A stretch of 23,498 nucleotides of DNA from a virus (IMGVR_UViG_3300036878_000022:1-23498); one strand, 5' to 3'; shown: positions 2,030 to 22,301, counted from the stretch's first letter. Notes: generated by a model not told the origin, from the letters alone. Numbers and translations: made by a program.

Positions 2030-2030
2030 A

Positions 2031-2161
2031 TGCCCCAGGTTTGGCCCCGCGGCTTTATAAAAACCTTCAAGAGAGGGTTCCTGGGCAGTTTCTTTAGGGG
2101 GGTGTGGATGTAGCCCCGTAACGGGATCCGGTAAGTTCTATCTTGCCAGGCGCCCCCCCTA
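2031..2161 (+). ncRNA. GC-rich structured leader upstream of the replication gene
   Basis: This stretch has no gene and is much richer in G and C than its surroundings. The first domain has TGCCC(C)AGG (2031-2039) pairing with CCTGGGCA (2080-2087) around the hairpin 2062-2068/2073-2079 with loop AAGA. The second domain has TAGGGGGG (2095-2102) pairing with CCCCCCTA (2154-2161). It encloses hairpins CCCG-TAA-CGGG (2115-2125) and GGTAAG-TTCTAT-CTTGCC (2130-2147). The layout suggests a folded 5' leader or a small RNA. It does not fit a tRNA, since a D arm and a 7-base anticodon loop are missing. No riboswitch class was recognised. Confidence 0.5.
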
Positions 2162-2174
2162 TTTTTAGGCAACT

Positions 2175-2837: not shown

Positions 2838-3874
2838 CTGAAATGAAGCTGGCCTCAGATTGCTGGGTTGATTCTCAGATAGGTATTGATGCTATTGATC
2901 CGGCTCGGATCTGCACCTTTGGGGTATCTGTGATGGATGATGCTCTGATTGGGATATTACCAAACGACTTGATTGTGATTGGCGCGGATTCCGGGGTTGG
3001 GAAAAGCGAGATCGCTTTGGATGTGGCCATGCACAATGCCGCAGCCGGTCGCAAGGTTGCTATGTACTTCCTTGAGGGCGGAAGTGATGAGGCTATAAAC
3101 CGAATTCGCTGGAAGATGATCAAGAATAAGTATTTTAATAAAAATTGTAGTGGCGTTGACCTGGATTATGCTAAGTGGAGGATGAATAAACTTAACTCTC
3201 CGCTTATGCGCCAGCTGAATGAAGAGTGTTATGTTGAATTTAAGGATAAGGTTAAAGATAATCTGCATATTTATAGCTTTGACGAAGGCTTTACGATTGA
3301 AATGTTGATGAGTTCAATCAGTCTTTTTGAGAAGAAGGGATCTCCGGGGTATAGCCTGGATTTGCTGATCATAGATCACCTTCAATACTTTTCCTTAACT
3401 TCAGAGCAAAATCAATTCGCTGAAATGACTGAAATTTTAATGAAGGTTAAAGAGATCACAAATCATTTTAAGATCCCTGTTGTCCTGGTGTCTCATTTGC
3501 GCAAGCGCGATAAGGATCGCGGGCTGCCTGGCCAGGATGATTTCTTTGGGACCAGTAATATCTCGAAGATTTCAAGTCAATCAATAGTTATAGCTGCTCA
3601 TCCTAATAGCGCTGATGATGATTACGTAAATGGCCTCTATCCTACATTTTTTAGGTTTGTTAAGTCCCGGACTGGATTACGACCAAGCCTGGCTGCTCTT
3701 TGTAAATTTGACGTAAAGACAGGGAAATATGCAAAGGTTTATGATGTTTATAGGCTTAAAGGAGACGTCCCCTTGAAGAGCCCTCTTGCAAATAGTAAAT
3801 TACCAAAATGGGCTTTAAGGGCGGCGTTACTTAAAGAACGAATAAAATTACAGCAGGAGGGCAGCGAAAAATGA
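2834..3874 (+). CDS. Replicative DNA helicase, DnaB/SF4 RecA-like core
   Basis: This 346-residue protein has Walker A GADSGVGKS at 50-58, Walker B LDLLIIDHLQYF at about 175-186, and the following beta-strand/sensor VVLVSHLRKRDKD. The order and the HLQYF and SHLRK signatures fit the C-terminal ATPase of DnaB-type hexameric helicases. The protein starts almost directly at the ATPase domain and lacks the N-terminal primase-interacting domain of cellular DnaB (about 450 residues). This is common for phage versions. It would unwind the replication fork and probably be loaded by the product of the gene before it (ATGA overlap). No primase is seen in this window. Confidence 0.85.
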   Translation: MTEMKLASDCWVDSQIGIDAIDPARICTFGVSVMDDALIGILPNDLIVIGADSGVGKSEIALDVAMHNAAAGRKVAMYFLEGGSDEAINRIRWKMIKNKYFNKNCSGVDLDYAKWRMNKLNSPLMRQLNEECYVEFKDKVKDNLHIYSFDEGFTIEMLMSSISLFEKKGSPGYSLDLLIIDHLQYFSLTSEQNQFAEMTEILMKVKEITNHFKIPVVLVSHLRKRDKDRGLPGQDDFFGTSNISKISSQSIVIAAHPNSADDDYVNGLYPTFFRFVKSRTGLRPSLAALCKFDVKTGKYAKVYDVYRLKGDVPLKSPLANSKLPKWALRAALLKERIKLQQEGSEK

Positions 3875-4095
3875 AAAATAAAACTCCATGGATCAATGAA
3901 GCGGTAGCGGTCCTGGCCGCCAGGCTGCAAAAGATTGAGGATGCGGGTTGGCGCGAGGTTCCGAGATCCTTTCACCGTGAGCGCTACGGCTGCCGGCATT
4001 ACGAAGCGGACAAGTCCACAATAGCTGGCGCCGGCCTGACCGCGGATCAGTATGAGCAAGAGATCAGGGCTATGGCTAAAAGGAATAAATTTTGA
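3871..4095 (+). CDS. Small unknown protein in the replication operon (74 aa)
   Basis: The ATG overlaps the helicase stop in the form ATGA, indicating translational coupling. The GCAGGAGGGCAG just upstream is a strong ribosome site. The product begins MKNKTPWINEAVAVLAARLQK and is basic and helical, with HRERYGCRHYEADKST in the middle and AMAKRNKF at the end. No family was recognised. Its position right after the helicase suggests a replication accessory role, but that is context only. Confidence 0.65.
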   Translation: MKNKTPWINEAVAVLAARLQKIEDAGWREVPRSFHRERYGCRHYEADKSTIAGAGLTADQYEQEIRAMAKRNKF

Positions 4096-4172
4096 TGCAA
4101 GATCCTAAAATATATTATCCAGATTCAACGACTGGAGATCTATTTGTGGATGATATGGATGTTTTAATCTAA
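4095..4172 (+). CDS. Very small ORF (25 aa) coupled to its neighbour
   Basis: The ATG at 4095-4097 overlaps the previous stop (TGATG). The frame MQDPKIYYPDSTTGDLFVDD MDVLI ends with TAA at 4170-4172. The product is acidic and has no recognised family. The tight stop/start overlap and conserved orientation favour a real translated peptide, but at this size chance is possible. A good ribosome site (AAGGAGG) for the next gene follows the stop. Confidence 0.4.
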   Translation: MQDPKIYYPDSTTGDLFVDDMDVLI

Positions 4173-4186
4173 CCAAGGAGGATAAG

Positions 4187-4672
4187 ATGAAAAGAATCGG
4201 AATGTTCTTTGTAGTTATGTTTTTGTTGGGCGCGACCCACGGATTTGCTCAAGAGGTCCCAGCGGTCCATATGCACCGGATTGACTACGGCGATTACAGG
4301 TCCGTTACGCTGGTGACGAAGGCCTGGGATGCGCTCAAAGCCAACGATCTGCAATCGGTATTGACTTATACAAACAAGTGTATTGAGTTTTACGGGGCCC
4401 AGGCAAGCAAGATGGAGGCAAGTCTCAAGGATTACGCGACCGGTACCAATGATCAGATCTTTAAGTATTGGGCATTGAATGATGTGGGAACGTCCTATTT
4501 CATCCAGGGCGAAGCGTACCGGGCGGCCGGCATGAATAAAGAGGCGATCGCGGCTTACAAGAAAGTCATTCATGATTTTACGTATGCACAATGCTGGGAC
4601 ACGCAAGGCTTCTTCTGGAAACCGGCAGAAGGCTCCAAACCACGGATGGATTTCTTAATTACAGGCAAATAA
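4187..4672 (+). CDS. Exported TPR-like protein, probably host-derived
   Basis: This 161-residue protein has a clear signal peptide (MKRIGMFFVVMFLLGATHGFA, cleavage likely before QE) and TPR-like helices (AWDALKANDLQSVLTYTNKCIEFYG; YFIQGEAYRAAGMNKEAIAAYKKVI). It ends with a distinctive segment, DFTYAQCWDTQGFFWKPAEGSK. From memory this segment is shared by small exported TPR proteins abundant in Omnitrophota, but no search was possible. Its codon use and higher GC than the flanking small genes fit recent acquisition from a bacterium. It sits as a single-gene insert between replication genes with its own strong AAGGAGGATAAG site. It would act in the periplasm or envelope of the infected cell, so it is best seen as a cargo gene (moron). 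Confidence 0.75.
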   Translation: MKRIGMFFVVMFLLGATHGFAQEVPAVHMHRIDYGDYRSVTLVTKAWDALKANDLQSVLTYTNKCIEFYGAQASKMEASLKDYATGTNDQIFKYWALNDVGTSYFIQGEAYRAAGMNKEAIAAYKKVIHDFTYAQCWDTQGFFWKPAEGSKPRMDFLITGK

Positions 4673-5086
4673 ATGAATAAAAATGAGCTTAAAAAATTAG
4701 TAGGCCATAAACGCCATAAATATGGCGCTGTACGCGTTACTTGCAAGTTAGGCCATCAGCACCCTTCCAAGGCCGAAGCAATGCACTGTTGGGCCCTTCA
4801 GGCTAAAATAAACCATGGTACAATTCGGGATCTGGAATATGAAAAGCCTTACGATTTGATTGTTAATGGTAAAAAGGTTGGTGTTCATAAACCGGACTTT
4901 ACTTTTAAGGCTCCTACTTTTAAACTTACTTCAACAGGGCCAATGTCCGCCGTCTCACAAATAAATTGGGACAATCCTATAATTTGTGTGGACGAAGTTA
5001 AAGGCTTCCGGACAAAGGACTGGATCTTTAGATCTAAAATGTTTCAGGCCTTATACCCTGAAGTTGAATACAGAGTGGTGGAATGA
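4673..5086 (+). CDS. DUF1064-family phage nuclease
   Basis: This 137-residue protein has the DUF1064 layout. KYGAVRV comes first, then PSKAEA (E35) on the first helix and GTIRDLEYEKPYDL. HKPDFTF follows (D75), then DEVKGFRTKDW with E108 and K110. E35, D75 and E108-x-K110 form a PD-(D/E)xK-type nuclease site. Family members are phage endonucleases often found in replication or recombination clusters, where a Holliday-junction or restriction-like role has been suggested. A loop of about 20 residues (TFKLTSTGPMSAVSQINWDN) between the D and ExK strands looks longer than usual. The ATG directly follows the stop of the TPR gene. Confidence 0.75.
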   Translation: MNKNELKKLVGHKRHKYGAVRVTCKLGHQHPSKAEAMHCWALQAKINHGTIRDLEYEKPYDLIVNGKKVGVHKPDFTFKAPTFKLTSTGPMSAVSQINWDNPIICVDEVKGFRTKDWIFRSKMFQALYPEVEYRVVE

Positions 5087-5277
5087 TAACAAAACATATT
5101 GGAATGGCCAGTGAGTTTGGAGTTTATATTGATAATGATATTAAAATTTACGACGATGAAGTGATGCGTCCGGATCTCCAATTCTGTCGGCAGCGCGCCA
5201 AGCACTGTGACTTTTATGTAAACACCAGGGCCTCTCAAGCCTGGCGCATGTTTGCAGAAAGATTAAAGCCCGCTTGA
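5083..5277 (+). CDS. Small unknown protein (64 aa)
   Basis: The start overlaps the nuclease stop in ATGA. The product starts MITKHIGMASEFGVYIDNDI and ends TRASQAWRMFAERLKPA. It has a mixed beta then helical look, with two cysteines (FCRQRAKHCDF). No family was recognised. It closes the replication operon, and the next promoter's -35 box lies across its stop codon. Confidence 0.6.
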   Translation: MITKHIGMASEFGVYIDNDIKIYDDEVMRPDLQFCRQRAKHCDFYVNTRASQAWRMFAERLKPA

Positions 5278-5302
5278 CAGGTTAAGTTTTTTTTGGTATT
5301 TA
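5274..5302 (+). promoter_or_regulatory. Sigma70-type promoter for the packaging/structural operon
   Basis: TTGACA (5274-5279), a 17-base T-rich spacer ending in GG, and TATTTA (5297-5302) make a good promoter. It starts inside the end of the 5083 gene. The terminase start at 5310 is eight bases past the -10 box, so the transcript would be essentially leaderless. No ribosome site is visible before 5310. Confidence 0.75.
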
Positions 5303-5309
5303 TGTTTTC

Positions 5310-5723
5310 ATGCCGAATAAAAAAGGAGCTGGCCGGCCTCCCATGTACCGGTCAGCTTATCAACTGCAACAAAAAATAGATTCATATTTTAAAAATCCTC
5401 CTAAAAGCAGACTGGTGTACGATAGCAAAGGCAAAGAGTACCGGATAGGCCTGGTGTCTATTTCAGGCCTTGCTTTGTACCTTGGTTTCTGTGATCGTTA
5501 CTCCTTCTATGACTACGAAAAGATCCCAAAATTTACCCACACTATAAAAAAGGCGCGTGCCAAGCTTACCGCAGAATACGAAGAGCAAGTCTCCCAGGGT
5601 AATTCATGTGCTATCTTCATGCTCAAGAATTTAGGTTATTCAGATAAGCAGATAATTGAACAGCAGGGAGACCCGAACCAGAGCATAACAGTAATCCTTT
5701 CTGATAAGACGATTAAAACATGA
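5310..5723 (+). CDS. terS: Terminase small subunit
   Basis: This 137-residue protein starts GAGRPPMYRSAYQLQQKIDSYF and continues with VSISGLALYLGFCDRYSFYDYEK, the helix-turn-helix DNA-binding part. KFTHTIKKARAKLTAEYEEQVSQGN and IFMLKNLGYSDKQ then form a helical oligomerisation region. This pattern is typical of P22 gp3-like small terminase subunits, which recognise the packaging site and feed DNA to the large subunit encoded next (ATGA overlap). No ribosome-binding sequence precedes the ATG. Together with the promoter 8 bases upstream this suggests leaderless translation. Confidence 0.85.
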   Translation: MPNKKGAGRPPMYRSAYQLQQKIDSYFKNPPKSRLVYDSKGKEYRIGLVSISGLALYLGFCDRYSFYDYEKIPKFTHTIKKARAKLTAEYEEQVSQGNSCAIFMLKNLGYSDKQIIEQQGDPNQSITVILSDKTIKT

Positions 5724-7150
5724 TCACTTTTAAAGCCGAGCCATTCCAAGAGAAGTTTATAATGTCACCTGACAAGTTCCCTTGCTATGCCGGAGGCTGG
5801 GGGACCGGCAAAACATTGAGCGCTATCACCCGCGCTGAGATCTATTCTAAGTCAATCCCTGATAACCTGGGCTGTATATTCCGTAAGACCGCGCGATCTT
5901 TAAACGACTCGACACTTCAAGACTTCCAGAAGTATACCGGCCACAAGGTAAGCGCGGATAGGAATTATCAATATCCAAATGGATCTGTGGCAATGTTCCG
6001 GCACTTGGATGAGCTCGATTCAATCAATCAACAAAACATTAACCTGGGCTGGTTCTACATTGAGCAGGGGGAAGAGCTGGACAGTGATCGCGAGTTCTGG
6101 ATGCTGATAGGCCGGTTACGCCGCAACCTCAAGCCGTCTCCGGAGTTCCTCAAGCTTGGCCTTCCTTTGCGTTCAGGGTGGGTTATATGCAACGCCGGGG
6201 ACAACTGGATCCGGAAGGGCTGGAAGGATGAGCCGTTCAAGGGTAGCAGCCTTGTAGAGGCCTCCACGTGGGACAATGCCCACAACCTACCTGTGGACTT
6301 CCTCGATACGCTCAGGGTCCTTGAAATAGAATCTCCGGAGCTCTATAAGCAATTCGTCCTCAATTCCTGGGATGCTTCAAAGAGTAATCGAGTATTCCCG
6401 CGGCCATTGATCGAAATGATGAAGCTTCGGTATGACGTTCTATCCATCGGTCAGCCGATTGCTAACATAGGCGTAACCGTGGATCCTTCCGGTATGGGCG
6501 CGGATGATAACGTATTCCTGGCCGGCAATAACGGGCTGCCGCTTGAATGGTACGAAAAGACGGTGATGAGCGCGACTGATAAAGCATACACCGCGCTTAA
6601 CCTCTGCAAGAAGCACGGCGGCTGGTGGATCCTTATTGATTGTGATGGCGTTGGTATCGAGACATATAAAGAGCTGATTGACTTTGATGATCGTATAAAG
6701 AATGGGATCCAGATTTTAAAGTTCCATGGCAGCGCGCCATCCGGCTTGATGTTTAACACAGGTCCAAACAATAAACCTCGTCAGATGTACGCTAATATGC
6801 GGGCTGAGGCGGCCATGGTAACTCAGAGAAGGGCGTACTCGGGATGGACAGGGATAGCTCCTACCGACAAGAAATGTATACGGCAGCTTGAGGCTGATAT
6901 CTCTTTCCAGAATGGCCGAGGCCTTTTGCAACTGATAGACAAGACAGAGATCAAGAAGCTGATAGGAGAGTCACCAGGCCGCGCGGATTGTTTCAAGATG
7001 ATGAATTGGGCATGTCACCAGGAATATGCAGATCAGACTTTCAGTAAAGAGGCCATGCAGCAAGCTCCCCAGGCGTTTGCAGACACAAGCGACAGTATTT
7101 ATGGGCCTGAGCCGGGCGGGGATATTCAACGCTACGCAGACAACAGTTAA
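5720..7150 (+). CDS. terL: Terminase large subunit (ATPase/nuclease)
   Basis: This 476-residue protein has an N-terminal ATPase with Walker A GGWGTGKT (25-32), an arginine-rich FRKTARSLNDST segment, and Walker B LGWFYIEQGEEL (109-120) with the catalytic Glu. A C-terminal RNase H-like nuclease follows: GVTVDPSGMGADDNVF with D255, WWILIDCDGVG, and GRADCFKMMNW near the end. These supply the acidic metal-binding residues. It is the motor that pumps DNA through the portal and cuts the concatemer. Its length is normal. It overlaps the small subunit by ATGA and starts the virion-assembly cluster. Confidence 0.93.
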   Translation: MITFKAEPFQEKFIMSPDKFPCYAGGWGTGKTLSAITRAEIYSKSIPDNLGCIFRKTARSLNDSTLQDFQKYTGHKVSADRNYQYPNGSVAMFRHLDELDSINQQNINLGWFYIEQGEELDSDREFWMLIGRLRRNLKPSPEFLKLGLPLRSGWVICNAGDNWIRKGWKDEPFKGSSLVEASTWDNAHNLPVDFLDTLRVLEIESPELYKQFVLNSWDASKSNRVFPRPLIEMMKLRYDVLSIGQPIANIGVTVDPSGMGADDNVFLAGNNGLPLEWYEKTVMSATDKAYTALNLCKKHGGWWILIDCDGVGIETYKELIDFDDRIKNGIQILKFHGSAPSGLMFNTGPNNKPRQMYANMRAEAAMVTQRRAYSGWTGIAPTDKKCIRQLEADISFQNGRGLLQLIDKTEIKKLIGESPGRADCFKMMNWACHQEYADQTFSKEAMQQAPQAFADTSDSIYGPEPGGDIQRYADNS

Positions 7151-7163
7151 AGAAAGGAATTAT

Positions 7164-7430
7164 ATGGGACAAGTTGAAGGAGGCTCAGCAAAGAAGGATA
7201 GAGAGCAAAGAGAAAGACAGTCTCAGTTAGAAAGTTCATTTAAGGCATCGAGGGAGGGATTGCCGGATCACGTCGTTGTTATGGCAATAATCTACGATAC
7301 GAAGGCTGGAAACGTCCAGGTAATGGGCCCGATAGCGAATAAGCACATGGCTTACGGTATGCTTGGCCTGGCCCGTGATTGTATCGAGACGTATAATCGT
7401 GAACACATAGCCGGAGTAAAAAATCCGTAA
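7164..7430 (+). CDS. Small unknown protein between terminase and acetyltransferase (88 aa)
   Basis: The start at 7164 is chosen because it has AGAAAGGAAT upstream and lies after the terminase stop. A longer reading from 7026 would run inside the terminase gene. The product has a Lys/Glu/Gln-rich N-terminus (SAKKDREQRERQSQLESSF). It then has a compact domain, VVVMAIIYDTKAGNVQVMGPIANKHMAYGMLGLARDCIETYNREH, which resembles the short proteins found near terminase in many podovirus-like genomes. Function is unknown. Confidence 0.7.
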   Translation: MGQVEGGSAKKDREQRERQSQLESSFKASREGLPDHVVVMAIIYDTKAGNVQVMGPIANKHMAYGMLGLARDCIETYNREHIAGVKNP

Positions 7431-7436
7431 TTCTTT

Positions 7437-7469
7437 TTGACATTTACTTTTTTAGGTATAGCCTAAAAT
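7437..7469 (+). promoter_or_regulatory. Possible promoter with an overlapping inverted repeat
   Basis: A perfect TTGACA (7437-7442) is followed by a T-rich spacer and GGTATA, as in the other promoters here. The candidate -10 boxes are badly spaced, however: TATAGC at 14 bases or TAAAAT (7464-7469) at 21. TTTTAGG (7450-7456) and CCTAAAA (7462-7468) form a 7-bp inverted repeat over the -10 area, which could be an operator or a weak hairpin. The next ATG, at 7477, has no ribosome site. Confidence 0.4.
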
Positions 7470-7476
7470 TAAATGT

Positions 7477-7926
7477 ATGAAATTTCAAGAAGAAATTTTA
7501 ACTGAAGATATCCTCAAAGAAGCAGAGCCTCTTCTCAAGAAACATTGGGAAGAAGTTGCTTTTTACAAAGACATTGAATTAGATCCCGACTACGAATTTT
7601 ATTTAGCACTTCAAGCTGCCGGAAGGATTAGATCCTATTCCGCCAGGGATGATCAAGGTGTGATGGCCGGTTACGCCGTCTACTTCCTGAAGAAAAATCC
7701 TCATTACAAACAAAGCCTTGTTGCCGCAGAGGATATTATTTTCTTTGATCCCCTGAAGCGGGGCGAAGGTATGAAGTTTATAAAATGGTGTGATGATGAG
7801 CTCCGTAAGTTAGGGGTTCAAATAGTTACGCATCATGTTAAAGTGTTTTTTGATTGGAGCCCTGCGTTGATCAGGATGGGTTATGATTGGCAGGATAAAA
7901 TCCTAAGTAAACGATTGGATAGATAA
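7477..7926 (+). CDS. GNAT-type N-acetyltransferase of podovirus type
   Basis: This 149-residue protein has the GNAT pattern. GVMAGYAVYFLKKNPHYKQSLVAAEDIIFFDP is followed by the acetyl-CoA-binding loop region PLKRGEGMKFIKWCDDELRKLG and then a last strand/helix, DWSPALIRMGYDWQDKILSK. Short acetyltransferases of this look are frequent between terminase and portal in short-tailed phages, and their target is unknown. The R-G-E-G-M loop fits the (R/Q)xxGxG/A motif only loosely. No ribosome site is seen upstream. The stop overlaps the next start (TAATG). Confidence 0.75.
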   Translation: MKFQEEILTEDILKEAEPLLKKHWEEVAFYKDIELDPDYEFYLALQAAGRIRSYSARDDQGVMAGYAVYFLKKNPHYKQSLVAAEDIIFFDPLKRGEGMKFIKWCDDELRKLGVQIVTHHVKVFFDWSPALIRMGYDWQDKILSKRLDR

Positions 7927-8183
7927 TGGCCATTGATGCTCTTATAGGGGCTTTAATTGGATTTGGCGCTTCTGAAGTGATGGGCGGCATGGGTAATAAA
8001 AAAGCAAAGGGACCCTCACAGGCGACACTTCCCAGCCAAGCTAATGCAAACACGGATGCATCAGCAACGGTAGCGGATCAGCGAGCAGCAATGCTCTATG
8101 CCGGTGGGCAAACAGATATGACCGGTGGTCTTGGCGTATTGACTGGATCTGATACCAGTAAATCTACTCTGGTAGGGAGTTAA
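7926..8183 (+). CDS. Small virion-cluster protein with hydrophobic N-terminus (85 aa)
   Basis: The N-terminus MAIDALIGALIGFGASEVMGG is Ala/Gly-rich and hydrophobic, a possible membrane-active helix. The middle is low-complexity Ala/Ser/Thr. The C-terminal GGLGVLTGSDTSKSTLVGS resembles the conserved TGL-G...T---LLG end of short proteins found beside the portal gene in many podoviruses. That family has no established function. It lies directly between the acetyltransferase and the portal, with a TAATG overlap upstream and two bases downstream. Confidence 0.6.
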   Translation: MAIDALIGALIGFGASEVMGGMGNKKAKGPSQATLPSQANANTDASATVADQRAAMLYAGGQTDMTGGLGVLTGSDTSKSTLVGS

Positions 8184-8185
8184 AT

Positions 8186-9826
8186 ATGGACCTAAATACT
8201 GATCTAAAGAATTTGATCCTTGAAAGTGATTATCTACATGGTCAGGACGGTGATAAGCTTTCATATTACCAAGACGTTGCTAACTTCTGTCTCCCGCGTA
8301 AAGCCTGGGTTACTACGATAAAGGCTACTGATCAACAATTAAACTTTAATTTCCTCTACGATTCACGCGCTATCCTGGCTGTCAAGAAGTCCGCTTGCGG
8401 CTTCCATTCCAAGCTTACCAGCGCCGTCACCAAATGGTTTGACTTCCGGACCATTGATTCCAAGAAGATGCAGGGCGGGAATGTCCAGCGGTACTTTAAA
8501 GATTGCTCTGATACTCAATACGATGTGCTCAATAGCTCTAACTGGAATGAAACTATCCTTGAAGGATATGTGGATGATCTCACCTTTGGCACAGCTCCGA
8601 TATTCACTGAAGAGGATTACCGTGACCACGTGCGTTATACTTCAATCCCTGTTGAATCAGTCAGCTTTGGCCGTGATGATCGCGGTGAGATATGCAAGAT
8701 ATTCCGCAGGTTTAAATATACGGCAATGCAGATTGTCATGCGCTGGCCAAACAATGTTCCTAAAGACGTTCGAGATTGTATTGAAAAGAAACAATATTAT
8801 CAGAAGTTTGATCTTGTCCATTACGTAGGACCTCGTGATATCCGGGATGTTTCTAAAAAAGATATTGTAAACATGCCCTATCGTTCCGTGTGGATCTATC
8901 CTAAGGGCGAAGATAAGCTTTCTGAATCAGGCTTCATGAGTAATCCATATTCTGTTTTGGAGTTTTGGAAGGAGCCAGGTGGAGGAATGGCATACAGCCC
9001 TGCCATGGATGTGCTGGCTTCAATCAAGCTGGCTAACGCGGAGAAGAGGACTATTATCCGAAGGGCCATGAAGGACGTGGACCAGGCTTCAATGTCACCG
9101 GCCCGGTTTTGGCTCGGCCGGCTGAATCAAAACCCCAACGCCATGAACATGTACGACAAGACAAAATACTCCAAAGAGGATTTTGGCACTATACCAACTG
9201 GCGGGGATCCAAAGTTATCTGTTGAAATGATGGCCCTTGAGCAGGACTTGATTGATAAAGGCTTCTTTCTGGACCTCTTTGAGGCCATGACCAGGGTTAG
9301 CAAGGATATGAATAACCCTGAAGTCAATCAGCGCATTGCAGAGGCCTTGGAGCTTATAGGACCGGTTGTGGGGGGAATGACTAAAAAAATAGGTAATGCC
9401 CAGATTAGAACTTTCGATATCCTGAATGATCGTTTGTTATTTCCGCCTCCGCCAAAAGAAATTGTTAATGAGCGCGGTAAAATAGAATTAAAAGTGATCT
9501 TTCTTTCACCATTGGCTAAAGCCCAGCGCGCGGCGGCTCTTGGCGGGCTCACTACCTGGCTTGGAATTGTCAAGGCCTTGCAGGGGATCAAGCAGGATGC
9601 TGGTGTTGGTGTTGACGTTGATCGTGTCTTGGCAGGGTCCGCGGATTTCTTGAATGTGGATCCTACATACGTCATGCAGCAGCGCAAGATTGATGAGATT
9701 CGTAAAAAGACAGCCCAGGCCCAGCAGCAGCAAGCGAAGATTCAACAGGCCGAGCAGATGGCCGGCGCAGCCAAAGATGCGGCCTCAGCTCACCATGAAC
9801 ACAAACAGGCAATGGCAGTTAAATAA
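8186..9826 (+). CDS. Portal / head-tail connector protein (T7 gp8-like)
   Basis: This 546-residue protein has a length and layout typical of podovirus head-tail connectors. It starts with a helical N-terminus with YYQDVANFCLPRK. The recognisable blocks are VKKSACGFHSKLTSAVTKWFDFRT, DDLTFGTAPIFTEEDY, EICKIFRRFKYTAMQI, KFDLVHYVGPR and YSPAMDVLASIKLANAEKRT, with LELIGPVVGGMTKKIG toward the end. The C-terminus is a Gln/Ala-rich helix (KTAQAQQQQAKIQQAEQ). It forms the dodecameric channel at one capsid vertex, docking terminase during packaging and the tail afterwards. The position after the terminase and before the scaffold agrees. Confidence 0.9.
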   Translation: MDLNTDLKNLILESDYLHGQDGDKLSYYQDVANFCLPRKAWVTTIKATDQQLNFNFLYDSRAILAVKKSACGFHSKLTSAVTKWFDFRTIDSKKMQGGNVQRYFKDCSDTQYDVLNSSNWNETILEGYVDDLTFGTAPIFTEEDYRDHVRYTSIPVESVSFGRDDRGEICKIFRRFKYTAMQIVMRWPNNVPKDVRDCIEKKQYYQKFDLVHYVGPRDIRDVSKKDIVNMPYRSVWIYPKGEDKLSESGFMSNPYSVLEFWKEPGGGMAYSPAMDVLASIKLANAEKRTIIRRAMKDVDQASMSPARFWLGRLNQNPNAMNMYDKTKYSKEDFGTIPTGGDPKLSVEMMALEQDLIDKGFFLDLFEAMTRVSKDMNNPEVNQRIAEALELIGPVVGGMTKKIGNAQIRTFDILNDRLLFPPPPKEIVNERGKIELKVIFLSPLAKAQRAAALGGLTTWLGIVKALQGIKQDAGVGVDVDRVLAGSADFLNVDPTYVMQQRKIDEIRKKTAQAQQQQAKIQQAEQMAGAAKDAASAHHEHKQAMAVK

Positions 9827-9831
9827 AAGCA

Positions 9832-10020
9832 ATGCAAACTATAATCAAAATTGAAAGCCGTGTTGAAGTCAGAAACGGTATATCATACACCGTTTATAAA
9901 AGATCAGAATATTCCACTAAAGATAAAGGCTACTGTTTAGAGCTCTTAAAGCAAAAGGCCTTTCAATATAATCAATCTAAAAAACCTTTACAGCTAACTC
10001 CAGCATTTGGGTATAAATGA
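9832..10020 (+). CDS. Small unknown protein (62 aa)
   Basis: The product MQTIIKIESRVEVRNGISYTVYKR... is a basic, probably beta-then-helix protein ending KKPLQLTPAFGYK. It begins six bases after the portal stop and overlaps the next gene by ATGA. It has no clear ribosome site and is probably coupled to portal translation. No family was recognised. Confidence 0.55.
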   Translation: MQTIIKIESRVEVRNGISYTVYKRSEYSTKDKGYCLELLKQKAFQYNQSKKPLQLTPAFGYK

Positions 10021-10511
10021 GCGTACTTCTTCAGATCAATGATAAATCACGCATGCCAATTAAGTTTCTTTGGCAGCTTATATTCACCTTTACATTTGAC
10101 AAAAAGTCTTGCGCTCACTGTACCAAGCGGATCATTGAAGAGCAAGTCTGCAAATGGAATGGTTTTGTCCAGATCAACAAGGTCCGTGAGCTTGATAAAT
10201 ACGGACTGGATCCGCTGATGGTGGGCGTTGCGGTAGGGCATAAGGGATCTGCCTTGGATGAAATGGAGTACCAGGTTGGCCTCATGTGCTCATGGTTGGT
10301 CCGGGAAGAAAAGGGCGAGTTTGAATCCCAAGTAGAGACGTATAAGAAGCATAAAATTGATTATCATATGGCCCAGCCGATGTGCCAGGTGTTCCCCGAG
10401 TATGTTTCTAAACATAGGAATTTTGCTAAAGGCCGGGCAGCCCTCCAAGCCGCCATGAAAGCTAATCCACAGGATTATGCTGGACCTAAGAAGAAAGGCA
10501 AGGTGTTTTAA
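10017..10511 (+). CDS. Unknown virion-cluster protein (164 aa)
   Basis: The product has a hydrophobic N-terminal stretch (IKFLWQLIFTFTFDKKSCAHCTKRI) with a CAHC pair. It continues through DPLMVGVAVGHKGSALDEMEYQVGLMC and ends with a Lys-rich tail (PKKKGKVF). The CAHC and further cysteines may bind metal, but there is no complete zinc ribbon. It lies between portal and scaffold, where short-tailed phages often carry lineage-specific proteins. No function is proposed. Confidence 0.6.
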   Translation: MSVLLQINDKSRMPIKFLWQLIFTFTFDKKSCAHCTKRIIEEQVCKWNGFVQINKVRELDKYGLDPLMVGVAVGHKGSALDEMEYQVGLMCSWLVREEKGEFESQVETYKKHKIDYHMAQPMCQVFPEYVSKHRNFAKGRAALQAAMKANPQDYAGPKKKGKVF

Positions 10512-14699: not shown

Positions 14700-14713
14700 A
14701 AAAGGAGATCAGC

Positions 14714-15259
14714 ATGTTTAAAAAGTTACTATTGCTTTTAGTGTTTTCGGCTTTCCTGGCCACTTCTGCCTTTGCCGCCGTTGGTATAACCGAGGGAGGG
14801 GCCGCGGTAGGACAGGCGTCCCAATTAAGCTTGCCTTGCGATCCAACGGCTGTAATTACCCTTGACGGTTTCACCTATAACGTCGGTTGTAATCCTAATT
14901 TTGTTATGATAGGGATTGCAAATGGTGGATACACGTCAATGACGACTTCGAGTTTGACGGTTCCGGTCAGTTACTCGTTTGTTAAAAAGGCAATCGCCGC
15001 CTCTGCTAACACAGGGTTTTCTACGGGTACGTTACCCGCGGGTGTTCCTGGCCAGACATTAACAATCCTCATTACCACCGTTGGCTCAAGCGGGTCATGG
15101 ACATTAACACCTTCGTCAAGCACGGGATGGACTTCCATTGTTTTTAATACAGCCGGGCAGCTTGTGACATTCTTATATGTCAATTCTACCGTTGGCTGGA
15201 TTATAGTAGAATATAGCGGAAGCACTTTACCGACTATCAATGATGTTGGTGGAGCATAA
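14714..15259 (+). CDS. Exported Ser/Thr-rich protein (181 aa)
   Basis: The start at 14714 is chosen because AAGGAGATCAGC precedes it and it opens directly with a signal peptide (MFKKLLLLLVFSAFLATSAFA, cleavage likely before AV). The longer in-frame reading from 14513 runs through the previous gene and terminator. The mature part is beta-rich with many Thr, Ser and Gly, including SYSFVKKAIAASANTGFSTGTLPAGVPGQTL and SSGSWTLTPSSSTGW. Such composition is seen in phage-encoded surface and virion proteins. The signal peptide implies export from the infected cell, which is unusual in a head/tail block. Terminators lie on both sides. No family was recognised. Confidence 0.7.
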   Translation: MFKKLLLLLVFSAFLATSAFAAVGITEGGAAVGQASQLSLPCDPTAVITLDGFTYNVGCNPNFVMIGIANGGYTSMTTSSLTVPVSYSFVKKAIAASANTGFSTGTLPAGVPGQTLTILITTVGSSGSWTLTPSSSTGWTSIVFNTAGQLVTFLYVNSTVGWIIVEYSGSTLPTINDVGGA

Positions 15260-15303: not shown

Positions 15304-16392
15304 ATGAAAAAATATACTCTGATAGCTTTATTTTTTCTTATTGCTCTATCATTAATTCCCCCGATAGATGTTGTTCTTCGTAATCCTCAAGATAAATATT
15401 GGCTATGGATGGTCCTGATTGCCGGATTTTTTGGTGTATTCACTCTGTTTATCAAAACACACTGGATGGTTAGGATCATTGCGATAGGATCATTCATTGA
15501 TTGTTTTTTCAGCGCGGCCCCTTATATTTCCTTCACGTCTTACTGTTCAATAGTCCTTTGTTGTTATTTTTATATTTCATGCTGCAATATCGAAGATTGG
15601 CCGCTTGTGTTTAAAGCGGTGCAAAGTCTACTGCTATTAAATGCGATTCTTTTAAGTTTAGAGTTTTTCCATAAAGATAATTTGATGGATTGGGGAGCTG
15701 CTTATAATTTCAATTTCGGAGTTTTAGGGCATCACATGCAGATGGGGAGCTTTGCGGTTGTGATATCCGCATTGCTCATATCCTTTAGCACGTTAAATTT
15801 CCTGTTTCCGGTTATAGTGGCAGTATTCTGTCAATCCAGCTGGGCCTTCTTTAGCGCCGGTGCTGGAGCAGTAGTCTATATGTATTCCAAAAACAAAAAT
15901 GTAGCTGCCATGGTATTTATAGGATTTATGTTTATCTTTTGTTTGTGGGATTTGAGCAATAATAAGTTTAAAGAAAATTTGAGTCCAGCAGCAGGGCGCA
16001 TAACGGTATGGCAAAAGACTTTTGAGTTAGCGAATAAACATCCTTTTGTTGGTTGGGGCCCGGGCACATATAAGTTGATTTTTGCTCCTTTATCAAGGAT
16101 GAAATCTATTCCTTACAAGACAGCTCATAATTTCATTGCCCAGCTTGTTTTTGAGGTTGGCTATCCGGCTACAGGATGCCTTTTATTTGGCCTGGGATGG
16201 CTTTGCGGGGCACTGTGGAGGGCTGAACTATACACCTTGACCTCTGGGCTTGCTATGATCGTTATAGACGCTCTGGTGCACTTCCCAGACAGATGTATGC
16301 AAATGGTCCCTTTGATCATTGTATTTTTAGCTTACTGTACTTTTTGCCTAAAAAAGGATAAATTATGCCTAACCCACTCTTTACTATCTTAG
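15304..16392 (+). CDS. Wzy/WaaL-type O-antigen polymerase or ligase (membrane protein)
   Basis: This 362-residue protein has about nine or ten predicted membrane helices. It carries the Wzy_C signature near residues 231-257 (GRITVWQKTFELANKHPFVGWGPGTYK) followed by TAHNFIAQLVFEVGYPATGCLLFG at about 274. This is the typical periplasmic loop and next helix of O-antigen ligases and polymerases. Members join or extend lipid-linked sugar chains in the inner membrane. In a phage the likely effect is to change the host's surface polysaccharide. The start has no ribosome site, because a terminator T-run precedes it, and no in-frame upstream alternative exists. The stop overlaps the tail gene by 28 bases. 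Length is a little short for WaaL (about 400). Confidence 0.8.
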   Translation: MKKYTLIALFFLIALSLIPPIDVVLRNPQDKYWLWMVLIAGFFGVFTLFIKTHWMVRIIAIGSFIDCFFSAAPYISFTSYCSIVLCCYFYISCCNIEDWPLVFKAVQSLLLLNAILLSLEFFHKDNLMDWGAAYNFNFGVLGHHMQMGSFAVVISALLISFSTLNFLFPVIVAVFCQSSWAFFSAGAGAVVYMYSKNKNVAAMVFIGFMFIFCLWDLSNNKFKENLSPAAGRITVWQKTFELANKHPFVGWGPGTYKLIFAPLSRMKSIPYKTAHNFIAQLVFEVGYPATGCLLFGLGWLCGALWRAELYTLTSGLAMIVIDALVHFPDRCMQMVPLIIVFLAYCTFCLKKDKLCLTHSLLS

Positions 16393-17243
16393 GGATCTGG
16401 AATAAAGCAATTTTTAAGATCGGGGCCACAAGGCTCAATCTTTCTGATCTTGCTAATCCGGCCACCTCGCCTAATCCGGCGGCTCAATACCTCACCGATA
16501 TTTGGCCTTTCGTTACTGCGGAGGCCTTAGAAGAGCACCCATGGTCATTTGCTGTTCAGACAGTGCCCATGGTTCCGTTGAGTCCGGTAGCCTGGGTTAC
16601 TTCTAACACATACAATGTTGGAACCTATGTTCTTGGTCCTGATAATAATATTTATGTTTGCGCCGTACAAAATACGTCCGGTGTATTCACGACTGATCTC
16701 GCGTCCGGTTATTGGATTGTTCAAAAAGACCAGAATGAAAATAATATTGCTCCTTTACTTATTCCTTTGCCTTTAATGAATGACGGCTGTAATCATCCCT
16801 ATGCTTGTCCGTTGGATTTTATCAATCCTTATTTGTTTAGTACCAGGGTATTTTACCGTAAAGAAACAGTAAAGCCGCCTTATCTGGCCACTCCAACTAT
16901 TGTTTTATTGATGAACGCTCCTGCTATTGCGAGTATGAAGTACGTTTCTTCTCAGCTGGATGTAACGCAATGGAGCTCTAAGTTTGTGGAGGCTATTGCT
17001 ACCGCCCTGGCCTACCAGCTTTGTTTTAAGATCTCTGAAGCGGCTCAATATGCGGCCGGACTTGAAAAAGACTACTCCGCTAAACTGATATCCGCTATTG
17101 CGGCGGATTCCAATACCACGTCTCCTGATCAAGCGATTGCGGACGAATGGTTCCTGGCAAGATTGACAGGATCAACAGCTGCGGTAGGGCTTGGTCCGGA
17201 TGGTAATAATGTCGGCTTTTATATGCCGGGGATAGATTATTAA
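16365..17243 (+). CDS. Tail tubular protein A (gatekeeper) with inserted sugar-binding-like module
   Basis: This 292-residue protein opens LGIWNKAIFKIGATRLNLSDLANP and has AEALEEHPWSFAVQTVPMVPL, SMKYVSSQLDVTQWSSKFVEAIATALAYQL and a helical end. This is the T7 gp11-like layout of adaptor/gatekeeper proteins that connect portal and nozzle. An extra module at about 76-121 (AWVTSNTYNVGTYV...YVCAVQNTSGVFTTDLASGYW) has the W-x-Y-x-G-x-V, Y-C and FATDLAAG-W features of CBM5/12-like modules. Close relatives occur three times in the next protein. The start is at 16365, overlapping the membrane protein, with AAAAAAGGATAA upstream. The stop and next ATG overlap (TAATG). Confidence 0.8.
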   Translation: MPNPLFTILGIWNKAIFKIGATRLNLSDLANPATSPNPAAQYLTDIWPFVTAEALEEHPWSFAVQTVPMVPLSPVAWVTSNTYNVGTYVLGPDNNIYVCAVQNTSGVFTTDLASGYWIVQKDQNENNIAPLLIPLPLMNDGCNHPYACPLDFINPYLFSTRVFYRKETVKPPYLATPTIVLLMNAPAIASMKYVSSQLDVTQWSSKFVEAIATALAYQLCFKISEAAQYAAGLEKDYSAKLISAIAADSNTTSPDQAIADEWFLARLTGSTAAVGLGPDGNNVGFYMPGIDY

Positions 17244-20200
17244 TGGGTTATAAGGGAACAATAGCCAAAACGAACTTTACTTTAGGCGAGATCTCCCCGC
17301 GATCTTTGGGGAGATTCGACCAGGATAAGCCTATATTCAAGAATGGCGCCGCTATTCTTGAGAACTTCCTAATCGGTGAAGCTGGCGCTGCATCCTTCCG
17401 GCCAGGCACTCAATACATTGCTAACGTAAAGAATCAAGCGCCGGCGTTATGGGTAACAGGCACTTCCTATGTTGTTGGCAATAATGTCTTGTATGGCGGG
17501 AATGTTTATATCTGCTTGATTGCGCACACATCAGGGATTTTTGCCACTGACTTGGCCGCGGGCGATTGGGAACTGTCTCCTGTTCAATCCGGTCAGGTAA
17601 GGCTTGAGAGGTTCACCTATAACATTGCCCAAGAGTACGTCATGGAAATGGGGCATCAATATATCCGTTTCTATGCCAATACAGGGCAGTTGATGGTTTC
17701 TTCAGCACCGGCATGGGTAACAAGTACGCCGTATGTTGTTGGTAATTTTGTTTCTGAGGGCGGCAATATTTATTATTGTGTGATTGCTCATACATCAGGG
17801 ACCTTTGCCACAGATTTAGCGGCTGGTGATTGGATACAACAGGTACTTGTTGAAATTCCCACTATCTTTAATCAAACTGATATTTTTAATTTACAGACTG
17901 CTCAAAAAGCAGACGTGATGTATATTGTTAATCCTAATTATTTCCCTCAGAAGCTTATCAGGACCTCAGCCACTTCTTTTTCAATAGCAAATGTCAATTT
18001 CTTCCGAGGACCCTTTTTGGATGTTAATATCACCGCGACCACCATCAGCGCGTCATCCGATACCGGAACAACAACTTTAACTGCCTCTGAAGCGATTTTT
18101 CAGATAGGACACGTGGGGTCTTTATGGCGTGTTAAGAATGGCGTTGTCTTGATTACCGGATTCACCTCTTCAACCGTTGTTGTTGGTATAGTCCAGGCTG
18201 AATTGAATGTGCCCGCGGTACCCAACGCCTGGGGATTAGGACAGAACTATAACATAGGAGATTATGTTTCCAATAGCGGTACTATTTATCGTTGCCTTGT
18301 AGGAAATACTACTTCAGATTCAAGCGTATTCGCTACTGATTTGTCTGCCGGTTATTGGCTTGCTACAGCTGGATCCGCCGGAGACTTGGGCACTGGCGGA
18401 AGCGCGACAACTGATTGGCAAGAGGGCGCTTTCTCACAGGTGAGAGGATATCCTTCTTCCGTGACCTTCCATGAAGGCCGTCTGGTGTATAGCGGGACCG
18501 CGTATAAGCCTCAAACACTCTATGCTTCTGCCGTTGATACCTATGACAGCTTTGATGTAGGCACGGCCCAGAATGCGGATGCCTGGACCTATGAAATAGC
18601 TAACCAGCAATCGAATGGAATCCGGTGGCTTGAATCAGATACGGCATTGCAAATAGGAACGTCAGGGGGATCAGTCACGGCCGCTGATGGTAACGCGTCA
18701 ACCGGAATTACGCCATCCTCACCTCCAACGATTTCTTATAATGACGTTTACGGGGCGATGGTAGAGCAGCCTGTCAAGCTTGGCGGGTATAGCTTTTTCT
18801 TACAGGCTAATAAATTTTATTTAAGGCAATTAACGTATGATTTAATCACCAGCAAGTATAAATCCGGCAGTCAGATGGTATTGGCTGATCATATCCTCCG
18901 TGATGGCCTTGGCGCCGTACAGATGGCCTCACAGAGCTCTCCTACGGACCGTATTTGGATAATCAGGGCCGATGGCCAGATTGCCGTTTTAACCAGGGAT
19001 CCGGAGCAGCAAGTCACCGGCTGGTGCCGGATAGTTGGCGGCGAATCGGATATTACTCAATCATGTGTTGGCTATAGCGGGACCTTTGAGAGCATCTGTA
19101 TCATTCCGTTGGATGGCCAGGATGATCAGGTTTGGGTAGTAGCCAAACGCTCGATCAATGGCGTCCTTTATAGATATATTGAAATTTTCACCGCTGAATT
19201 ATTCCAAAATTATTGGGAACCGGTGCGCATGGATTGCAGTTACACTTATGACAATCCGATAACGATTACGGATATTGATACTACACAAAACCCTATTTTA
19301 GTTACCGCTCCTAACCATGGATTAACGGCATACGATCAGGTTAAGATTGATGGATGTATTGGAGCTGCCCAATTAAATGGCGGAATATTTGCTGTTTTTT
19401 CTCCCACAACAAATACTTTTAGGTTACAGGGATTGATAGCCCCAACAATTACTACCCAACCGGTAAATGCTCTGGTAGTGGCTCCGAATACCGCAACTTT
19501 TACGATTGTTGCGACCGGTTCCGTGGCTCCGACTTTACAATGGTATATCAGTACGGATGGCGGAAATACATGGACACCAATCAACGGCGCAACATCAGCC
19601 AGCTATACGACTCCGGCAACAACTTTAGCCAATAACGGTAATCAATTCAAATGTGTTGCGACAAATTCAGTTGGAAATGTTACATCAAACGTGGCTATTT
19701 TAACTGTTGATACGGTTCCTTCTTTCACAACGCAACCGTTAAATATTACGGTCCCTGTTGGAAATACAGCCACATTTACCTCTGTGGCTATAGGAAATCC
19801 AGCACCAACTTACCAATGGCAAATAAGCACTGATAGCGGATCTACTTGGACAAACATTTTAGGAGCTACAAGCGCGAGTTACACAACACCGCCTACTACA
19901 TCCGGTCAGGACCAATACGAATACAGGTGTGTTGCTACAAATAGCGCGGGAACGACTGATAGCAGCGCGGCCACAATGACTGTTGACTATTCTCCGAATA
20001 TTACTACACAGCCGTCAAATACTTCAGTTAATGAGCCGGGGACAGCTACATTTACTATTACAGCCACAGGCGATCCTTTACCAACTTATCAATGGTATTT
20101 AAGCACAAATGGTGGTACTTCTTTTACTCCTATCAGCGGGGCCACAAGCGCGGCCTATACTACCGGAGCAACGAATGTTGGAATGAATGGATATCAATAT

Positions 20201-21091
20201 AAATGCGTGGCTACCAACTCTCAAGGATCGGCAACAAGCAATGTGGCAATACTTACTGTAAATGTTCCCGCCTTAGAAGTCCTTATTGTTGCTGGTGGCG
20301 GTGGTGGTGGTAACGATTCCGGTGGCGGTGGCGGAGCCGGTGGTTTACTTTATCAAGCAGCTGTTAATTTTATTTTAGGAAATAGTTATACCATTACTGT
20401 CGGAACCGGAGGCGCTGGAGCAACGACAGCTGGTGCCCGCGGTGCAAGTGGTGTTAATTCTACTGCATTTGGGTATACGTCCGTTGGTGGCGGTGGCGGT
20501 GGCGGTAGCGGTACTTCGACAGGTCTTAACGGAGGTTCTGGTGGCGGCGGAGCATTTGAAGGGCCTGGTCCTGGCGGAACTGGCACATCAGGGCAAGGTT
20601 ATGCCGGAGGGTATGGTTATACACAATCCGGGCCTACAACCGTAGACGGCGCTGGCGGTGGCGGAGCTGGTGGCGTTGGTGTAACTGCAACGGCTAATCA
20701 TGCCGGTGCTGGCGGAGCTGGGATATCTAATAGCATCACTGGAAGCGCTGTTATTTATGCCGCTGGCGGTGGCGGCGGAGATTATGCCGGTTATGGTGGA
20801 ACGGCGGGCGCTGGTGGAAGTTCAGGCGTTGGTGGTGCCGGTAACAATAACTCAGCTGGTGGCGCTACAGGAGCCGGTGGAGTTGGTGCTACAAATACGG
20901 GTTCAGGCGGCGGCGGCGGTTCAGGGGCTCATGGCTATGGCGGAAATGGCGCCGCGGGTGTTGTTATCATTGCTTATACAACCGGAGTATTTGGCGCGGA
21001 TGGTACCGGTGGGACCGTTACTCATTCAGGTGGAATGACGATTCATACATTTACGACTTCAGGGACATTTGTTGCGCCTACAGGAAGTTAA
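17243..21091 (+). CDS. Tail nozzle protein (N-terminal part) fused to Ig repeats and a Gly-rich adhesin
   Basis: This protein has 1282 residues. Residues 1-733 follow the podovirus nozzle family (T7 gp12-like): AKTNFTLGEISPRSLGRFDQDK, LENFLIGEAGAASFRPGTQYI, GAVQMASQSSPTDRIWIIRADGQIAVL, and near the end an FCCH-like stretch NPILVTAPNHGLTAYDQVKIDG...TTNTFRLQG. Three CBM5/12-like modules are inserted (about 68-113, 156-199, 329-378). After 733 come three Ig-like repeats of 92 residues (anchors Q739, Q831, Q923), then a Gly-rich region (about 1018-1240) and the end piece IHTFTTSGTFVAP (1267-1279). The expected nozzle C-terminus is absent here and appears in the next gene. It should form the tail tube and project receptor-binding domains. 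Confidence 0.85.
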   Translation: MGYKGTIAKTNFTLGEISPRSLGRFDQDKPIFKNGAAILENFLIGEAGAASFRPGTQYIANVKNQAPALWVTGTSYVVGNNVLYGGNVYICLIAHTSGIFATDLAAGDWELSPVQSGQVRLERFTYNIAQEYVMEMGHQYIRFYANTGQLMVSSAPAWVTSTPYVVGNFVSEGGNIYYCVIAHTSGTFATDLAAGDWIQQVLVEIPTIFNQTDIFNLQTAQKADVMYIVNPNYFPQKLIRTSATSFSIANVNFFRGPFLDVNITATTISASSDTGTTTLTASEAIFQIGHVGSLWRVKNGVVLITGFTSSTVVVGIVQAELNVPAVPNAWGLGQNYNIGDYVSNSGTIYRCLVGNTTSDSSVFATDLSAGYWLATAGSAGDLGTGGSATTDWQEGAFSQVRGYPSSVTFHEGRLVYSGTAYKPQTLYASAVDTYDSFDVGTAQNADAWTYEIANQQSNGIRWLESDTALQIGTSGGSVTAADGNASTGITPSSPPTISYNDVYGAMVEQPVKLGGYSFFLQANKFYLRQLTYDLITSKYKSGSQMVLADHILRDGLGAVQMASQSSPTDRIWIIRADGQIAVLTRDPEQQVTGWCRIVGGESDITQSCVGYSGTFESICIIPLDGQDDQVWVVAKRSINGVLYRYIEIFTAELFQNYWEPVRMDCSYTYDNPITITDIDTTQNPILVTAPNHGLTAYDQVKIDGCIGAAQLNGGIFAVFSPTTNTFRLQGLIAPTITTQPVNALVVAPNTATFTIVATGSVAPTLQWYISTDGGNTWTPINGATSASYTTPATTLANNGNQFKCVATNSVGNVTSNVAILTVDTVPSFTTQPLNITVPVGNTATFTSVAIGNPAPTYQWQISTDSGSTWTNILGATSASYTTPPTTSGQDQYEYRCVATNSAGTTDSSAATMTVDYSPNITTQPSNTSVNEPGTATFTITATGDPLPTYQWYLSTNGGTSFTPISGATSAAYTTGATNVGMNGYQYKCVATNSQGSATSNVAILTVNVPALEVLIVAGGGGGGNDSGGGGGAGGLLYQAAVNFILGNSYTITVGTGGAGATTAGARGASGVNSTAFGYTSVGGGGGGGSGTSTGLNGGSGGGGAFEGPGPGGTGTSGQGYAGGYGYTQSGPTTVDGAGGGGAGGVGVTATANHAGAGGAGISNSITGSAVIYAAGGGGGDYAGYGGTAGAGGSSGVGGAGNNNSAGGATGAGGVGATNTGSGGGGGSGAHGYGGNGAAGVVIIAYTTGVFGADGTGGTVTHSGGMTIHTFTTSGTFVAPTGS
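19442..20270. repeat. Three in-frame Ig-like coding repeats, 276-bp period
   Basis: Each unit encodes (I/F)TTQP, then AT-TFT--A-G-P-PT-QW-IST-GG--WT-I-GATSA-YTT, then N-----C-ATNS-G---S-VA--TV. The invariant Gln of TTQP falls at residues 739, 831 and 923, a strict 92-residue spacing. The units are diverged at DNA level, so the duplication is not recent. Confidence 0.85.
20291..20965. repeat. Gly-rich low-complexity coding region
   Basis: About 225 codons are dominated by GGN with interspersed Ala, Ser, Tyr and Thr. The opening VLIVAGGGGGG and the closing VVIIAYTTGVFG are the usual borders of Gly-rich phage adhesin domains. The repeat allows slippage but the frame is open throughout. Confidence 0.8.
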
Positions 21092-21101
21092 AAGGTGATT
21101 T

Positions 21102-22301
21102 ATGGCTTTATTAGTAAATGATGTTCATTTTGGGACCGTTGTTAGCGGATATTCATTTCCTATAACATGTACTCCAAATGGAGCTGGTAATCCTGTAAAT
21201 CTTTTAAGCATTGTTTGTGTTTGGTCATTAGGACCAGCCCCTTCTTCTGTTGTTTTTTCAGGAATAGGAGGACAATTTACTTTTATAAGAAATATATCTC
21301 TTGGTCCTTACACTGTATCTTTCTGGGGAGCATTTGGGCTTCCTTATCAATCAGGAACGTATGTAACAGTTACTTTCCCAAGCGCCGTTAACCTTGCCAT
21401 AGGAATGTGTCAAACTTATCAAAACGCTTATCAGGGAGCGTTGCCAAATGTTATTTATTCAAATTATGGTGCAAATATAGAAAGTATTTCGGTAAACGCG
21501 CCAGACCCAGATAATCTTTCTATATTAACTGGTATTGTTTTTGGAGTTAAGGTTCAATATTTTGGTTGGCCCACAGTTCCCGATGCAATTTCTACCTGGG
21601 AAAACTATGGGGGTCCTGAGGGCCCCTATTTCAATGGTTCCTTTTTTAATGTAGGATCGCCAACAGCACCAGATATTATTACTCTTAATTATGGGACTTC
21701 AACTGTTCTTGGTATATGTGAAATAGTTATAGAAGAATATGGCTGGGTAGCTCCTATCCCAATACCAGTTCCGATAGTTTGTCCTTATTTTGAAGGCGGT
21801 TTTGCCCGCAAGATGGTAAATACATTAAGCGATCTATGGGCAATTAACGGCCAGGCCGTGTCCATTGTTCAGGATGGTGTTGTTTCCGTTGATAGCGGTC
21901 AGATCGTTAATAACGGATCAATAACTTTAACGAATAAGGGCGCGGTCATTCATGTGGGCCTTCCGTATGATGGAACTGTCCAGCTTCTCCCTCTTGGCGG
22001 GGATGGCCAGACGGTCAATCAAGGCAAAGAGCGTAAAATATACGATATTGTTTTAAGGCTGTATCAAAGTTTGGGCGGTACCTTTGGCGCGGATACTGAT
22101 GTTATGTACCCTCTACCGATTCCCGCGGTCACGCAGCCGGCCAACGCTATCGTCAATCCGCTATACACCGGAGATATCCATGGAGTCGGATTTGAGAGCA
22201 AATGGGATCAGTATTGTATGCCGGTATTGAGAAAGAACGATCCTACTCCCTTTACGTTGTTAGCGGAGATTATTCGCTCAGAAATCAGCGAGGATAAATA
22301 A
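21102..22301 (+). CDS. Adhesin-like domain fused to the nozzle C-terminal part
   Basis: This 399-residue protein has two parts. Residues 1 to about 220 form a beta-rich domain with AT-rich codons (MALLVNDVHFGTVVSGYSF, and repeated NL-I--- strands) resembling lectin- or jelly-roll-like domains of phage adhesins, with no catalytic motif seen. A PIPIPVPIV linker leads to residues 227-399. CPYFEGGFARKMVNTLSDLWAINGQAVSIVQDG, SITLTNKGAVIHVGLPYDGTVQLLPL, QGKERKIYDIVLRLYQSLG, LYTGDIHGVGF and RKNDPTPFTLLAEI in that stretch match the C-terminal part of T7 gp12-like nozzle proteins. That is the part missing from the gene before. AAAAGGTGATTT gives it its own ribosome site 10 bases after the upstream stop. 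The two chains probably assemble together. Confidence 0.75.
   Translation: MALLVNDVHFGTVVSGYSFPITCTPNGAGNPVNLLSIVCVWSLGPAPSSVVFSGIGGQFTFIRNISLGPYTVSFWGAFGLPYQSGTYVTVTFPSAVNLAIGMCQTYQNAYQGALPNVIYSNYGANIESISVNAPDPDNLSILTGIVFGVKVQYFGWPTVPDAISTWENYGGPEGPYFNGSFFNVGSPTAPDIITLNYGTSTVLGICEIVIEEYGWVAPIPIPVPIVCPYFEGGFARKMVNTLSDLWAINGQAVSIVQDGVVSVDSGQIVNNGSITLTNKGAVIHVGLPYDGTVQLLPLGGDGQTVNQGKERKIYDIVLRLYQSLGGTFGADTDVMYPLPIPAVTQPANAIVNPLYTGDIHGVGFESKWDQYCMPVLRKNDPTPFTLLAEIIRSEISEDK

Follow-up and report, generated by a model that had tools for sequence, protein, structure and literature searches.

The DNA considered here is a stretch of 23,498 nucleotides from a virus of bacteria (IMGVR_UViG_3300036878_000022:1-23498, hereafter the window). 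It carries two consecutive open reading frames (ORFs), gene 1 (1282 aa) and gene 2 (399 aa), at the coordinates given by the initial annotation, which was made from the nucleotide sequence without database searches. Gene 1 and gene 2 are one podovirus tail nozzle, cut cleanly into two. The tail protein profile of PHROG family 376 (phrog_376, 712 positions) was matched at positions 63-553 by residues 116-672 of gene 1 (E 1e-108) and at positions 557-710 by residues 239-396 of gene 2 (E 2e-23). With profiles made from relatives, the tail nozzle of phage Carin-1 (8ck1) was matched at 9-591 by the gene 1 part (E 5e-177) and at 660-826 by the gene 2 part (E 1e-41). Because the two genes cover phrog_376 and 8ck1 in a complementary, non-overlapping manner, together they make up one nozzle. 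This agrees with the annotation, in which residues 1-733 of gene 1 had been read as the N-terminal and middle parts of a nozzle without the C-terminal block, and residues 227-399 of gene 2, with the strands IHVGLPY (residue 283) and PLYTGD (residue 353), as the missing block. The annotation had staked this on two points: the C-terminus of gene 2 does resemble nozzle C-termini, and the first 733 residues of gene 1 are not a complete nozzle.

The predicted folds lead to the same assignment. When AlphaFold2 was given an alignment of relatives, the C part of gene 2 was modelled mostly with a predicted local distance difference test score (pLDDT) >80, and its best Foldseek matches were the tail proteins of Carin-1 (8ck1), LME-1 (9efk), T7 (gp12), E1004 and P-SCSP1u. 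The model of gene 1 residues 1-733 (pLDDT 79, predicted template modelling score 0.76) matched 8ck1 (TMq 0.64), 9efk and T7 gp12. The locus thus has the N-terminal, propeller and C-terminal sequences of a podovirus nozzle, the fold of each part and the position directly after the adaptor gene. What it lacks is the single ORF, which is the usual state of a nozzle gene and not its defining feature: the N-terminal core and the C part lie in separate ORFs. Pseudomonas phage LUZ24 was also compared, since the fold search with gene 1 returned Pa223, a phage related to LUZ24; LUZ24 showed no sequence match to either half.

The cut runs through a domain. The E1_FCCH-like match with which the nozzle part of gene 1 ends, as initially described, stops at position 51 of the 70 in the Pfam profile, both in the window (E 0.11) and in a second split phage, L029 (E 8.5e-6). 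In an alignment with L004 and others the last strand of this domain, CPYFEGGFARKM, was found in gene 2, where it opens the C part; in neither phage is the domain whole in one chain. Between the halves, Pfam recovered the three Ig repeats and the Gly-rich adhesin of the initial annotation, and its AT-rich codons hold for third positions. The G+C content at third codon positions is 0.45 in the nozzle N part, drops at the beginning of the cut FCCH-like part (0.26), stays between 0.20 and 0.33 across the cassette (Ig domains 0.33, Gly-rich domain 0.31, gene 2 N-terminal domain 0.20) and recovers to 0.47 in the C part of gene 2. For the gene 2 N-terminal domain, structure prediction gave beta strands in the first 106 residues with modest confidence.

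Table 1. Features of the split nozzle locus, in coordinates of the window
Feature	Position	Strand	Description and evidence
Gene 1	17243..21091	+	Nozzle N-terminal platform strands, propeller and tip, with Ig/Gly-rich extension; ORF, phrog_376, 8ck1, fold
Nozzle core, gene 1 residues 1-672	17243..19258	+	N-terminal platform strands and propeller; profile, Pfam, fold
CBM_5_12-like repeats (n=3), within nozzle core	starts 17450, 17714, 18230	+	Pfam
E1_FCCH-like domain, N-terminal part	19259..19441	+	Cut by the gene break; Pfam
Three Ig domains (I-set/Ig_3)	19442..20263	+	Three stretches, starts 19442, 19718, 19994; Pfam
Gly-rich adhesin-like domain (Gly_rich_2)	20264..21088	+	Pfam, E 8e-13
Gene break	21089..21101	+	Gene 1 TAA (21089-21091), ribosome site AAAGGTGAT, TGA in frame ahead of gene 2 (21096-21098)
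Gene 2	21102..22301	+	N-terminal domain and nozzle C-terminal platform; ORF, phrog_376
Gene 2 N-terminal domain	21102..21779	+	About 220 aa; no known family
Nozzle C-terminal platform	21780..22298	+	Opens with last strand of the cut FCCH-like domain; phrog_376, 8ck1, fold
Adaptor (gp11-like) gene	16365..17243	+	Directly upstream of gene 1; phrog_394, E 6e-21

It might be thought that the two ORFs are after all made as one chain, through frameshifting, readthrough, RNA splicing or protein splicing, but nothing was found that speaks for it. The stop, new ribosome site (AAAGGTGAT) and new start (ATG 21102) that had been annotated between the halves are all present. Behind the TAA of gene 1 a further stop follows nine codons on in the same frame, and gene 2 lies in another frame, closed by a TGA right before its ATG. 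As there are stops in both frames and gene 2 has its own ribosome site, frameshifting or readthrough cannot join the halves. No intron or other RNA element reached the Rfam gathering score in the window and four other split loci, Pfam detected no intein, and in one relative (L234, below) entire genes lie between the halves, so that a single chain is extremely improbable. Promoters and terminators between gene 1 and gene 2 were found no more often than by chance. Nor do we give any real weight to the possibility that the split reflects faulty sequencing or assembly, or gene decay. The sequences are metagenome contigs from a group without a known isolate, which speaks for such an explanation, but it is contradicted by the same split in a second IMG/VR record (37.9 kb, 100% identical to the window in the 14,059 bases that were compared) and in six other contigs, with protein identities as low as about 40%. 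Moreover, stops, starts and ribosome sites are all proper, and the ratio of nonsynonymous to synonymous substitution rates (dN/dS) is near 0.09 in both halves where measured. The 37.9-kb sister record contained no second copy of either nozzle half.

The six further contigs from IMG/VR are split in the same region and carry different cassettes. In 3300027976_000624 (L029) and 3300020057_000165 (L173) gene 2 starts with a Laminin_G-like (LamG-like) domain, the match being weak in L173; in both the contig ends within gene 2, and L173 reaches just the first strand of the C part. In 3300025311_000110 (L242) the stop and start codons of the two genes overlap, and gene 2 starts with a domain of about 225 aa that is possibly related to the N-terminal domain of gene 2 in the window (BLASTP E 0.03); no convincing relatives of these two domains were found among phage records. 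A different arrangement was seen in 3300031788_000087 (L234), 3300030044_000104 (L243) and 3300037342_000014 (L236, in which the C gene was confirmed). Here the N gene ends ahead of the FCCH-like domain and is followed by one or two short genes, beginning by eye with apparent signal peptides, and then by a C gene of 230 aa that comprises the FCCH-like domain and the platform. One of the short genes of L234 matched the tail-fibre family phrog_24210 (E 1e-10). IMGVR_UViG_2627854024_000001 (L223), in which two long ORFs stand between the ORF of the core and the ORF with a C-part match (1143-6534), was not counted because the C match was weak and partial (22 bits); this arrangement could also be decay.

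Comparison of close relatives shows how these cassettes behave. The DNA of L029 and L173 is 98.9% identical along 9,704 bp, reaching to the final bases of gene 1; past this point just 109 bp align, at 74%, apart from a short match of 94.6% at the start of the C part. Identity between L234 and L236 is 90.7% along the N gene; their cassettes could not be aligned by BLASTN, and identity resumes at 80% at position 11233, one base ahead of the start codon of the C gene. For this pair, the one measured, dN/dS was 0.098 for the N gene and 0.094 for the C gene, and the cassette proteins shared only 42% identity. Both halves are thus under purifying selection in this pair, and together with the diverged cassette this indicates an exchanged cassette flanked by retained halves. 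Adhesin-like domains of the locus are therefore exchanged between close relatives, as seen in the relatives and not for the window's own cassette. No convincing repeats that would suggest a mobile element were found at the cassette borders.

The initial annotation had proposed looking for related phages with an unsplit nozzle gene, and 209 such loci were found in IMG/VR scans and six more later, some contigs being counted twice; since loci were fetched by similarity, the ratio of split to unsplit is no frequency. No relatives were detected in two scans of bacterial genomes. The first survey yielded 162 unsplit loci, in most of which the insert separating core and C part was 2-11, 70-98 or 153-158 residues long, with single cases of 115, 248 and 301 residues, as against about 850 residues in the window. 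This is an old variable site, at which the unsplit relatives carry zero, one, two or more extra domains (L004, for instance, one FCCH-like domain). Like the window, IMGVR_UViG_3300018080_000731 (L093) has a domain inserted within the nozzle FCCH region, in this case of LamG type, but there is no gene break and the nozzle is a single ORF of 1,047 aa. Another locus, L219, has an unsplit nozzle-like frame of 1,069 codons (7034-10240) with 463 aa, partly Gly-rich, between the core and C-part matches.

This bears on the order of events. According to the initial annotation, an adhesin cassette had been inserted into the nozzle gene and had thereby split it. The anatomy stands, but insertion of the Ig/Gly cassette is not the likeliest cause of the split. 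As six other contigs, from two clades, have the break with other cassettes, the break probably predates the Ig/Gly cassette now found in the window. A phylogenetic tree of the core contained two well-supported split groups (the window, L234, L243, L236 and L232; L242, L029 and L173) in one clade of 14 rows, and the tree of the C part contained the same two groups. Two split groups are thus favoured by the core tree, while a single clade of split phages is allowed by the approximately unbiased test (p-AU 0.42 for the core, 0.12 for the C part). Under either history the break appears to predate the cassette.

The position of the break may be understood from nozzles of known structure. In T7 gp12 the fibre dock joins the end of the propeller to the C-terminal platform, and the first 45 residues of the chain supply three of the strands in the platform barrel (PMC6702177). 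In SU10, too, the chain runs from the N-terminal platform into the propeller and from there on to the C-terminal platform (PMC9509320). If the T7 layout is shared, the break coincides with the fibre dock, and two chains have to complete the platform barrel together. The hexameric tail nozzle would then be built from two polypeptides: gene 1 would supply the N-terminal platform strands, the propeller and the tip, and gene 2 the rest of the platform, which adjoins the adaptor. Judging by homology, the two chains would come together in the virion, both contributing to one platform barrel and to the cut FCCH-like domain. A boundary at the fibre-dock position would leave two free chain ends outside the tail: one is the C-terminus of gene 1, which bears the Ig and Gly-rich domains, the other the N-terminus of gene 2, which bears the domain of about 220 aa. 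Among close relatives such adhesin-like domains are swapped as a cassette, most likely altering what the phage binds. Host recognition is most simply what exchanged adhesin-like free ends at this position would mean, and in an Acinetobacter phage host range can be determined by tail tubular protein B (PMC10904470). The cassette exchange and the purifying selection in the one pair lend support to reassembly and to receptor binding.

We therefore consider it probable that the nozzle consists of two chains and that the gene boundary serves as a slot for exchangeable adhesins, with chain pairing, outward display and receptor binding inferred. Somewhat less firmly, we lean towards a stricter form, in which two chains are obligate and jointly complete the platform barrel. 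The boundary would then be a slot reserved for adhesin genes or domains, placed where T7 has its fibre dock; recombination would exchange them whole there, free of any constraint from the nozzle reading frame. Several points weigh against these views: pairing and binding are deduced, the folds having been modelled as single chains; PHROG and Pfam scans recognised no family for the N-terminal domain of gene 2; the right border of the exchange between L029 and L173 is placed by the short match only, because both contigs end in gene 2; and the proteins encoded between the halves in the L234 group have apparent signal peptides, which would be odd in a virion. Their place of action may be the cell surface instead.

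Instead of binding host receptors, the cassette might let the phage adhere loosely to particles, mucus or polysaccharide, or it might decorate the tail structurally. Ig and LamG-type domains are common on phage virions (head decoration and tail families in the PHROG scan), and the CBM-like repeats in the nozzle body would fit such a role. Exchange of whole cassettes between near-identical phages, however, is the behaviour of host-range parts, one cassette protein is tail-fibre-like, and nothing recognisable as a fibre gene was found further downstream in the sister record, which is possibly incomplete; we regard loose attachment as rather doubtful. It is less probable still that the C part of gene 2 is an anchor for a separate fibre-like protein, with the gene 1 nozzle doing without a C-terminal platform or using another protein for it. 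That gene 2 has its own adhesin-like N-terminal domain would suit an anchor, as would the branch leading to the window group, along which the C part changed faster than the core (1.1 vs 0.64 changes per column). Yet the platform sequence is kept at full length under strong purifying selection, gene 1 retains conserved N-terminal residues that belong to platform strands in T7, and no other platform candidate was found.

Several further observations concern the neighbourhood. CBM_5_12 is a chitinase-type carbohydrate-binding module, and its three repeats in the nozzle body span 17450-18370; a similar stretch lies inside the adaptor gene (16548-16724), and L234 has similar ones by eye. Just ahead of the adaptor gene is a Wzy_C (O-antigen ligase-like) gene (15304-16392), found at the same place in L029 and by eye also in L173, L232, L234 and L236, which may change the host surface polysaccharide. 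Close to the tail genes of this group there are repeatedly small proteins that seem to have signal peptides and look alike by eye (window 14708-15259; L029 521-1054 and 3391-3918), in one instance directly before the nozzle gene. On L236's contig (L251, 7485-8078) an ORF between the adaptor and nozzle genes resembles an HNH endonuclease by eye. Far upstream in the window, an ORF of 149 aa (307-756) consists mostly of Cys-Ser-x triplet repeats (YCSDCSSCSDC...), and other frames are open across the repeat on both strands.

The nozzle is a precisely built channel protein, and it is one chain in the structures considered and in nearly all relatives found here. In the open literature searched, with most subscription journals outside its scope, we found no description of a split nozzle. 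If the two-chain reading is right, the nozzle fold has a tolerated break point, a two-chain platform is predicted, and phages could swap binding parts without a separate fibre gene. The closest comparison is gp36 of Cobetia phage Carin-1 (8ck1), to which both pieces align and which has an extra domain at the same site, but gp36 is a single chain of 830 aa with about 84 aa at the site, against about 850 in the window. T7 gp12 shares the fold of both halves, and the site corresponds to its fibre dock; it differs in being a single chain, without a detected sequence match, to which a separate fibre, gp17, docks. Epsilon15 gp12, tail tubular protein B of HTVC035P and podovirus MW202898 are sequence relatives with the same neighbourhood of adaptor, nozzle and internal virion proteins, and MW202898 has an FCCH-like domain at the site. 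Unlike in the window, each of these nozzles is encoded by one ORF.

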